From the NCBI GenBank assembly GCA_963920765.1, contig OY987243.1, forward strand, positions 10,168,001 to 10,232,000: 64,000 bases of DNA. Reading direction: 5' to 3'. A program made the position numbers and the translations under genes. Origin of the DNA: Ulota crispa (taxonomy: Eukaryota; Streptophyta; Bryopsida; Orthotrichales; Orthotrichaceae). The notes beneath the pieces are model-generated. The model did not search any database. It had not been told where the DNA came from and worked only from the letters and a program-made list of their open reading frames with translations. Of the stretch, positions 7,602 to 62,188 are shown piece by piece. Each line of letters begins with the position of its first letter. Position 1 is the first letter of the stretch.

Positions 7602-7918
7602 TAAGGTAGGAGCACCCATAAGCAACGCTGTCCCCATAACCATCAATTTTGAAATCTTTGAAAATCTTTGGAAGTAAATAGATGTAATGACAAGGATGTA
7701 CAACATGTGAACATGAAATCTTGAAAGTGGTTATGGGTACAATGGCAGTTTGCTCTTCAAAAATTCACAACTTATTCTCACAATATCCAAATAATACATT
7801 CAAAATTGCAAACTCATTATTTTTTATTCCTAATAGGATCCTATAATTTGCTACCTGCTTATTAATACTCATCATGTTCAAAACCCTTGAATTGACGCTT
7901 ATGGGTGCTCCTACCTTA
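7602..7918. mobile_element. MITE, TA/AGGTAG subfamily 1, copy a
   Basis: The ends are TA-AGGTAGGAGCACCCATAAGC and GCTTATGGGTGCTCCTACCT-TA, an almost perfect inverted repeat of about 21 bp flanked by TA. The interior (TTCACAACTTATTCTCACAA, TAGGATCCTATAATTTGCTA) recurs at 9235, 53840 and 60436. Non-coding. Confidence 0.85.
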
Positions 7919-53839: not shown

Positions 53840-54155
53840 TAAGGTAGCCACACCCATAATCATCACTGTACCCATAACCATCATTTCTAAAATCTTGGAA
53901 AATTTGTGGAAGTAAATAGATGTCGTTATAAGGATGTACAATATGTGGACATGAAACACTAGTGTTGGTTATGGGTGCAATGGCAACTTGCTTTTTAAAA
54001 ACTCACAACTTATTCTCACAATATCCAAATAATACATTCAAAAGTGCAAACTCATTATTTTTCTATTACTAATAGGATCCTATAATTTGCTAGATGTTTA
54101 TTAATAATCATCATGTTCAAAACCCTTAATTTGACAGTTATGGGTGTGGCTACCA
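53840..54155. mobile_element. MITE, TA/AGGTAG subfamily 1, copy c
   Basis: The left end is TA-AGGTAGCCACACCCATAA and the right end is TTATGGGTGTGGCTACC, after which the expected T-TA is degraded. The interior matches copies at 7602, 9235 and 60436. It sits upstream of the transporter gene. Confidence 0.8.
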
Positions 54156-59750: not shown

Positions 59751-60435
59751 CTTTAACAACTACGCCGAAGATGTAACACACAAGTCAAAACTTAGAAAGC
59801 CCCACGTCCTTCCAAGATTCATGATTATTCACTCACCACGTAGACCCTGGTTTTGATGCCGGACCAAGTCAAGTGGATTCGAAATCATCACTCCAGTAAC
59901 AAAGATCTCGAAATGCTTACGTGAATATCCTGGAATTGACCAGCACTCTATTCAACATTTTGTCTAATGTTACTTAGTATAATCTATATTTCGCAAATCC
60001 ATGATAGTCAATGAATAAGAGATGCATCTCAAGGAAAAGAAAATCGAGAACAAAACGACCAGATTTAACGTTAAACTATATAGAAAGAGATCTCAAACAT
60101 ATTTTTTTAAGGCACAGGTTGTAACCATGCATTCCTTACCGAAATTAAAGGAATCCTTCGATCTGTAGTTACAACGTCAATTGTTTCATTCAGGAGACTG
60201 TACGCGGCAATATTCGAGGCCTATACTCACGGACTAATAAAATTTACAAATCTGGAACTGGAATCAAAATTCTCTGTCGTCGATCACGTGATCTAGCTTC
60301 ATTAGAAGTGACATAATCTGCAACGCTACATGCCAGCAAGTAAAGTGGAGAAGTGGTAGTGCATCAGAAGTATTACCAGTTTTCAGAGGAGATTATGCTG
60401 CACAAGCATGTAGCCTACTCTGGATCGACGTGCAC
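59751..60435. other. Intergenic DNA downstream of IWS1
   Basis: Mixed-composition sequence with no supported gene. Part may be IWS1 3' untranslated sequence if transcription runs through the adjacent MITE. Confidence 0.35.
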
Positions 60436-60742
60436 TAAGGTAGCAGCACCCATAAGCGCCACTGTCCCCATAACCATCACCTCTAAGATCTTGAAGAATC
60501 TGTGGAAGTGAATAGATGTAAATACAAGGATGTACAACATGTGAACATGAAACCTTAGTGTTGGTATTAGGTGTAATTGCAGTCGGCTCTTTAAAAATTC
60601 ACAACTTATTCTCACAGTATCCAAAGAATATATTCGAAAGTGCAAACTCATCATTTTTCGGATACTATAATTTGCTAGATGTTTATTAATAATCATCATG
60701 TTCAAAACCCTTAGTTTGACGGTTATAGGTGCGGCTACCTTA
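60436..60742. mobile_element. MITE, TA/AGGTAG subfamily 1, copy d, at the IWS1 stop codon
   Basis: The left end is TA-AGGTAGCAGCACCCATAAG and the right end is CGGTTATAGGTGCGGCTACCT-TA. The interior is collinear with the three other subfamily-1 copies. The right TA (60741-60742) and the first element base (60740) together form the IWS1 stop codon TAA on the minus strand. Confidence 0.85.
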
Positions 60743-62188
60743 AAAGTAGTTGACGGCACCACGGCCTTCCACGCTGATCTTGGATGCCTGCATGCTCTTC
60801 TTGGGGGTTTTCAATTGCTGCAGTTTCTTGTTCATCTTCATTCGCTTCTCATCTTGATGCTGCTGCCGTGCCCTGTTCTGAAACTCCTGAGGATCGACCT
60901 TCGACTCGGGGCGCCGAACGAAGTCCAGAGCAAGAGCTTCGGGTCGGGAAGCGTGTTGCCTGTACCCGGGATCGCCCCGCTTCACTTCCTTCTGACCTTG
61001 AAGCATATCCAGCTCGTCTCCCCTGTCGATGTTCGCACGCTTCACGGGGGGTTTTTTCACAGGCGTTCTCCGTGGCAAAGGTCGATCCTCATCATAAGTG
61101 CGTAGATCCTCGTACCTCGTGCTCTTCTGGAAAAGAGGCCGGCTCCATTTATCCACCAGATCTCTCGCCAGCTTCTTATTCGCGGGTGTCTCCTCCGGCA
61201 GACGAGAAAGAAACATGACCACCTTGCCAAGCCCGCTCTTTTTCAGCTGATCCCGCCGCTCGAACTGCTCCACGTCGATGGGGAGATCCGTGAGGAGCTT
61301 CAACAGGGTGGTCCGGATGTTCATGTTGGGTAAGGACCCGTCGGGAAGAGGCTCCAGCCAATCCTTCAACGACGACAGCACGCCTCGGTCCAGAAACTCC
61401 ATTTGCAACTGCCGCTTCTGCAGCACCGTCCAAAGCTCCGACAGCATCTTCAGCTTCTCAATTGCAGGCTTCGAGTTCCGGTTCAGGTCCGCATCCGTTT
61501 CTGCTGCAACATCCAGCTTCGCCATGAACTGCTCCACAAACATGGCGATTTCCTCCGGCGTTCGCTCCAGTTTCTTCTTCTTCTTCCCCTTCCCGAACAA
61601 CCTCTCGTCCTCCTCGTCTTCCTCCGCCTCCTCGGCCTCCGGGTGCCGCCGATCCCGATCCGATCCCTCCCCATCGCTGTACACCACACGGTCTTCCTCC
61701 GGCACGCCTTCGTCGTCGATGAACTTATCCTCGTCTTCTTCCCCGGACTCGTCGCCATCGCCCGCCACCGAGTTCCACATTTCCTTCATCTCCTTCTCCC
61801 CTTTCTTACCCCTGGTGATCCCCTTCCCACCCTTCCCCTTTTCCTTGTACACATCTCGAACCCTATCCTCTCCACGCTGCTTCTTCACACTCCGCCTCCT
61901 CTCCGGCTCCTCCTCTTCCTCCTCCGACTCCACCTCCTCGTGCCGTCCGCCCCGTTCCTCATCGTCCGACTCCTCCACCACCGCCTTCTTCACCAACCGC
62001 TTCCGCCCTCGCCCCGCCTTCCTGTCCTCCTTTTCCACCGGCTCCGGTTCCACTTCCTCCTCTACCTCAGGCCGGATCATCCCTTCCTCCTCGGATTCAT
62101 CGTCTACAGGCCTCGGCTCACGCGCACTGCCATTGCCTTCCCCTGCAGAATACGCCGAATTCGGCGATCCCTCCCTCGAATCGCCCAT
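60740..62188 (-). CDS. IWS1: Transcription elongation factor IWS1/SPN1
   Basis: A single open frame of 482 residues. The ATG at 62188 (MGDSREGS) is chosen because the frame upstream has no ATG, only GTG codons. Residues about 25-205 are acidic and disordered, with lysine-rich patches, as in plant IWS1. The conserved core, about 210-365, includes ERTPEEIAMFVEQFMAKL, the TFIIS N-terminal-type motif DWLEPLPDGSLPN (277-289), KKSGLGKVVMFLS and DLVDKWSRPLF (343-353). The C-terminus has MNKKLQQLK and SVEGRG, also conserved. IWS1 binds SPT6 and RNA polymerase II in the nucleus, and in Arabidopsis it acts with BES1 in brassinosteroid-responsive transcription. Plant homologues usually have introns; here there are none. 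The stop codon is completed by a MITE end. Confidence 0.95.
   Translation of the reverse strand: MGDSREGSPNSAYSAGEGNGSAREPRPVDDESEEEGMIRPEVEEEVEPEPVEKEDRKAGRGRKRLVKKAVVEESDDEERGGRHEEVESEEEEEEPERRRSVKKQRGEDRVRDVYKEKGKGGKGITRGKKGEKEMKEMWNSVAGDGDESGEEDEDKFIDDEGVPEEDRVVYSDGEGSDRDRRHPEAEEAEEDEEDERLFGKGKKKKKLERTPEEIAMFVEQFMAKLDVAAETDADLNRNSKPAIEKLKMLSELWTVLQKRQLQMEFLDRGVLSSLKDWLEPLPDGSLPNMNIRTTLLKLLTDLPIDVEQFERRDQLKKSGLGKVVMFLSRLPEETPANKKLARDLVDKWSRPLFQKSTRYEDLRTYDEDRPLPRRTPVKKPPVKRANIDRGDELDMLQGQKEVKRGDPGYRQHASRPEALALDFVRRPESKVDPQEFQNRARQQHQDEKRMKMNKKLQQLKTPKKSMQASKISVEGRGAVNYF

Follow-up and report, generated by a model that had tools for sequence, protein, structure and literature searches.

The window analyzed here, a stretch of 64,000 nucleotides from Ulota crispa (C2:10168001-10232000 in a genome of 274.8 Mb and 157 contigs), carries on its minus strand an IWS1 gene whose coding sequence (60740 to 62188) begins with an ATG at 62188 and runs uninterrupted, with no intron required, over 482 codons to a stop at 60742-60740. 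The identity of this open frame is given by PDB and Pfam matches. A PDB search aligned residues 44-477 of P0001, the translated stretch, with human IWS1 (E 5.8e-34), and the frame matched the Pfam Med26/TFIIS helical bundle (TFIIS N-terminal, Med26-like domain, 7.7e-13). The PDB alignment also revealed that the C-terminal block of the frame is homologous to human IWS1. The protein ends with the residues SVEGRGAVNYF, and the alignment of the human chain 9egx_O terminates at KISIEGN, at residue 817 of 821, four residues before the end of the chain. Thus, in either protein the end lies only a few residues from this block. No plant IWS1 orthologue was found among the 10 distinct sequences listed in the PDB search, none being named as a plant protein, and a literature search on IWS1 tails returned nothing usable.

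At the end of the gene, the minus strand reads ...GTC AAC TAC TTT TAAGGTAGCCGCACC..., where the last bases lead directly into a MITE of 303 bp with terminal repeats AGGTAGCMGCACC (60438 to 60740), as delimited by its genome-wide repeat family and its inverted repeat. The stop codon TAA (60740 to 60742, minus strand) is composed of the gene-side copy of the TA target duplication (60741 to 60742), which provides its first two bases, and of the first base of the element, an A at 60740. The other copy of the TA directly borders the element on the far side (60436 to 60437). The location of a MITE inside the stop codon of an intact IWS1 gene is therefore confirmed, and the proposal of the first-pass annotation, that the insertion falls within the stop codon and that the third base of the TAA comes from the element, is borne out by the sequence and by the borders of the element. 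When the element and one TA are removed, the empty site reads directly as ...GGT GCC GTC AAC TAC TTT TAG TGC ACG..., in which the in-frame stop is the same codon, TAG instead of TAA. The base that completes the TAG once the flanks are joined with one TA (TTT TAG TGC) is the G at 60435 (minus strand), and this TAG would be the native stop as it stood before the insertion if that base has not changed since.

The arms of the inverted repeat (60436-60461 and 60717-60742) are 26 nt long including the TA and 85% complementary, so that the element combines short length with terminal inverted repeats, as is typical of MITEs. One of its frames is open throughout, and its 303 bp are too short for a whole transposase. 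A genome search with the MITE gave 40 scored matches among 3,108 first-look candidates. The exact 20-base terminal pattern was found 244 times in forward and 246 times in reverse orientation, and the reversed control gave 0 and 0; these 490 genome-wide matches are ends and not copies, as a copy with two good ends is counted twice, and copies are thus fewer. All 30 of the fetched copies spanned 299-318 bp between the borders drawn by BLAST and had different flanks, i.e., the family is represented at many unrelated sites by copies of similar length. At these borders, TA directly flanked both sides in 19 of the 30 copies, including the one in IWS1; the 11 others differed on one side, where inspection by eye revealed either a base substitution or a BLAST border set off the true end. 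Just outside the TA, all four bases occur (T 31, A 27, G 20 and C 16 among 94 ends), which limits the target duplication to TA and assigns the A to the element. As the family starts with A, the retention of a stop after a hit in the TA of a stop codon was not a matter of luck. The 30 copies were turned to one orientation, and a consensus was derived from the 29 copies other than that of IWS1. Divergence from this consensus ranged between 1.3 and 5.5%, the IWS1 copy being the most distant of the 30 (5.5%, 17/307); these distances do not represent the age of the family, as the 29 copies shaped the consensus and were all picked for their likeness to the IWS1 copy. Two more apparent copies of the family, more diverged by eye, are present in the window (7604-7916 and 53842-54155).

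The TA target duplication, as found at the BLAST borders of those 19 copies, is the one known for Tc1/mariner elements and points to this superfamily. PIF/Harbinger, with its three-base duplication, was rejected because the bases beside the TA vary among copies; a three-base duplication would in any case yield the same empty site. As for a source of transposase, 134 DDE_3 matches were detected in the genome (150 scored of 206 candidates). One of the three DDE_3 elements that were fetched (L074) has TA-CAGTSAGGTAGCAAAAG ends, as read by eye, which have AGGTAGC in common with the MITE, offset by five bases, and it matched both DDE_3 and HTH_Tnp_Tc3_2. The two others showed no AGGTAGC and no inverted repeat led by TA. 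The element itself (L074:661-2208) is Tc1-like, about 1.5 kb long and flanked by TA, with a transposase frame split in two (82 + 258 codons). Because the AGGTAGC lies at a different offset, it constitutes a weak lead, and not an established autonomous partner of the MITE.

A paralogue of IWS1 (L042, G000:C2:10304020-10305495) lies at a distance of about 74 kb and is oriented the opposite way. It was called broken, as it contains one TAG and one TAA in frame. In the alignment of its coding part, eight gaps were found, each with a length divisible by three, which suggests that it was coding until fairly recently. About 130 bp of it are identical to the intact IWS1, while 100-base blocks earlier in the coding part range from 70 to 92%; this pattern points to either gene conversion or a strongly constrained domain. 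The 3′ end of the paralogue carries no MITE. Beyond the element, on the minus strand, positions 60192 to 60420 align with this MITE-free 3′ flank with 66% identity (153/231 columns), with a local score of 63, where none of 500 shuffles exceeded 19, and identity in 100-base blocks was about 67-69%. A whole-genome DNA search with 60160-60435 listed the window itself alone, its first look having missed the paralogue at such divergence. It is thus most likely that the native 3′ flank of IWS1 survives, moved 305 bp away. The first-pass annotation had considered that the native terminator and the proximal 3′ untranslated region were replaced by the element; instead, the 3′ flank appears displaced past it, since in the paralogue the homologous sequence follows closely on the coding part. 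Around the stop, the paralogue is too diverged for an ancestral codon, TAG or other, to be read there (42 of 85 aligned bases identical and 15 gapped in the 100-base block spanning the stop). The best MITE trace in the paralogue locus, at L042 3714-3757 and about 700 bases past the coding end, had a local score of 22, slightly above the maximum of 19 in 200 shuffles, and was taken as chance or as a scrap.

Taken together, these data make it highly probable that a TA-targeting, non-autonomous DNA transposon, Tc1/mariner-like by its target site, entered the TA of a native TAG stop of IWS1, which now reads TAA with the same protein end. The initial A of the element would have turned the codon into TAA, with translation terminating at the same residue, and the G past the element would be the original third base of the stop. 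The 3′ end of the mRNA would then be made either at the AATAAA of the element, or beyond the element with a 3′ UTR longer by 305 nt. This account is supported by the borders of the stop and of the element together with the TA on both sides of the family copies, by the empty site in which VNYF is followed by an in-frame TAG, by the end of human IWS1 four residues after the KISIEG block, and by the homologous 3′ flank retained in the MITE-free paralogue. The simplest reading is a native TAG, as within a longer coding sequence the only possible codons starting with TA are TAC and TAT. It should be kept in mind that the step from TAG to TAA rests on a single base, the G at 60435, and that, with an IWS1 copy 5.5% away from the consensus, a later change of that base is possible.

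Such a change would be needed if the element had instead hit an in-frame tyrosine codon (TAC or TAT) of a longer protein and removed its tail, the flanking base having mutated to G later. The element is capable of truncating a protein, as both of its ends carry stops in two of the three frames (a TAA at once, or a TAG two codons in), and after the TAG of the empty site the frame stays open for 13 further codons. However, the empty site has a TAG precisely there, human IWS1 terminates at nearly the same place, and the gaps in the alignment of the far flank with the paralogue are not in threes, unlike those of a coding sequence. We thus consider the loss of a tail very unlikely. The first-pass annotation had left open whether the original tail was lost or preserved by chance; with a TAG at the same codon of the empty site, the VNYF end is most likely native, and the insertion most likely turned TAG into TAA and left the protein unchanged. 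It is hardly conceivable that the TAA and the GGTAGCC next to it are native gene sequence and not the border of a MITE. We found no support for this idea, which is refuted by the family copies, as the same ends are common to copies at many unrelated sites. The occurrence of the same stop and GGTAGCC in relatives without the MITE, from which the first-pass annotation would have concluded that these bases are not from the element, was checked in the paralogue alone, and neither the TAA nor the GGTAGCC was present in the aligned stretch that was examined.

Besides the stop codon, the element may bring other signals to the end of the gene. A motif scan revealed a candidate poly(A) signal, AATAAA, within the MITE (60682 to 60687, minus strand), which starts at base 56 if the T of the stop is taken as base 1. 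No other exact AATAAA occurs in the 943 nt scanned on the IWS1 strand, and 24 of the 30 MITE copies, that of IWS1 included, have one at position 52-57. Transcripts could therefore be cleaved after it, in which case both the stop and the poly(A) signal of IWS1 would be derived from the element. This would refine the insertion account and is no alternative to it, and we regard it as quite possible without leaning toward it: a hexamer is weak evidence, and the homology of the far flank with the 3′ flank of the paralogue fits a native end located there, but does not prove it. The third frame is open across the entire element from the IWS1 side and for 25 codons from the other end, so that an element inserted with the fully open phase and orientation would let translation pass instead of stopping it. 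Accordingly, an ORF of 115 codons runs through the entire MITE on the minus strand of the window (60415-60762). For the 325 nt that comprise the last 18 bases of the coding sequence, the stop codon and the element, the predicted RNA fold surpassed all 100 shuffles (z -3.76), and in this prediction the terminal repeats, hence also the stop codon, are within the closing stem.

By chance, 0.3-3.3 insertions into stop codons would be expected, and a single one is thus unremarkable. This estimate takes 490-3,100 copies (490 being the number of ends, a generous lower figure), an assumed 20,000-30,000 genes of which an assumed two thirds have stops starting with TA, and a TA frequency of 0.069 per base, as measured for the window alone. 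A scan for long frames ending exactly at TA+A, over 94 ends from 60 fetched loci (of the 3,108 first-look candidates), detected no other clear stop-codon insertion, and IWS1 alone exceeded 150 codons. One other locus (L022) presented 140 open codons and an empty site likewise with TAG, and was rejected: it does not look coding, and its length is within chance, as the maxima in the other two frames, used as control, were 103 and 164 codons.

The IWS1 case is thus neat, but it is an ordinary kind of event and overturns no known view. Its value is that of a clear record, at the level of the base, of a TA-targeting element that entered a stop codon, with the protein probably unchanged. Since its first base after the TA is an A, the element yields TAA whenever it inserts into a TAA or TAG stop, and one of its two orientations additionally places an AATAAA near base 56. 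One might speculate that the family is safe for stop codons and acts as a portable gene end, maybe tolerated or enriched at stops in the AATAAA orientation, which we consider unlikely. A simple rule can be proposed, by which the stop is preserved when the TA is followed by an A or a G as the first base of the element, and it is testable across annotated genomes.

The element resembles the Stowaway-like Tc1/mariner MITEs of plants, which are also short, with terminal inverted repeats, a TA target duplication and a high copy number. It differs from them in its terminal repeat, which starts with AGGTAGC, whereas the terminal consensus of Stowaway begins with CTCCCTCC, which after TA would not rebuild a stop. 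In the accessible parts of three reports (PMC12550479, PMC7357744, PMC6593561), no insertion inside a stop codon is described. For rice Ghd2, the available portion of the report describes a Stowaway-like MITE in the 3′ UTR that is associated with translational repression (PMC5338036), while the MITE of IWS1 starts within the stop codon. According to the part of the study at hand, many MITEs overlap last exons in Arabidopsis accessions, and the 2,308 that span part of a coding sequence and part of a 3′ UTR may contribute stop codons and poly(A) signals (PMC5454002). Compared with what is given there, IWS1 adds a site at which the event can be read at the level of the base, probably as a TAG turned into TAA through the TA target.
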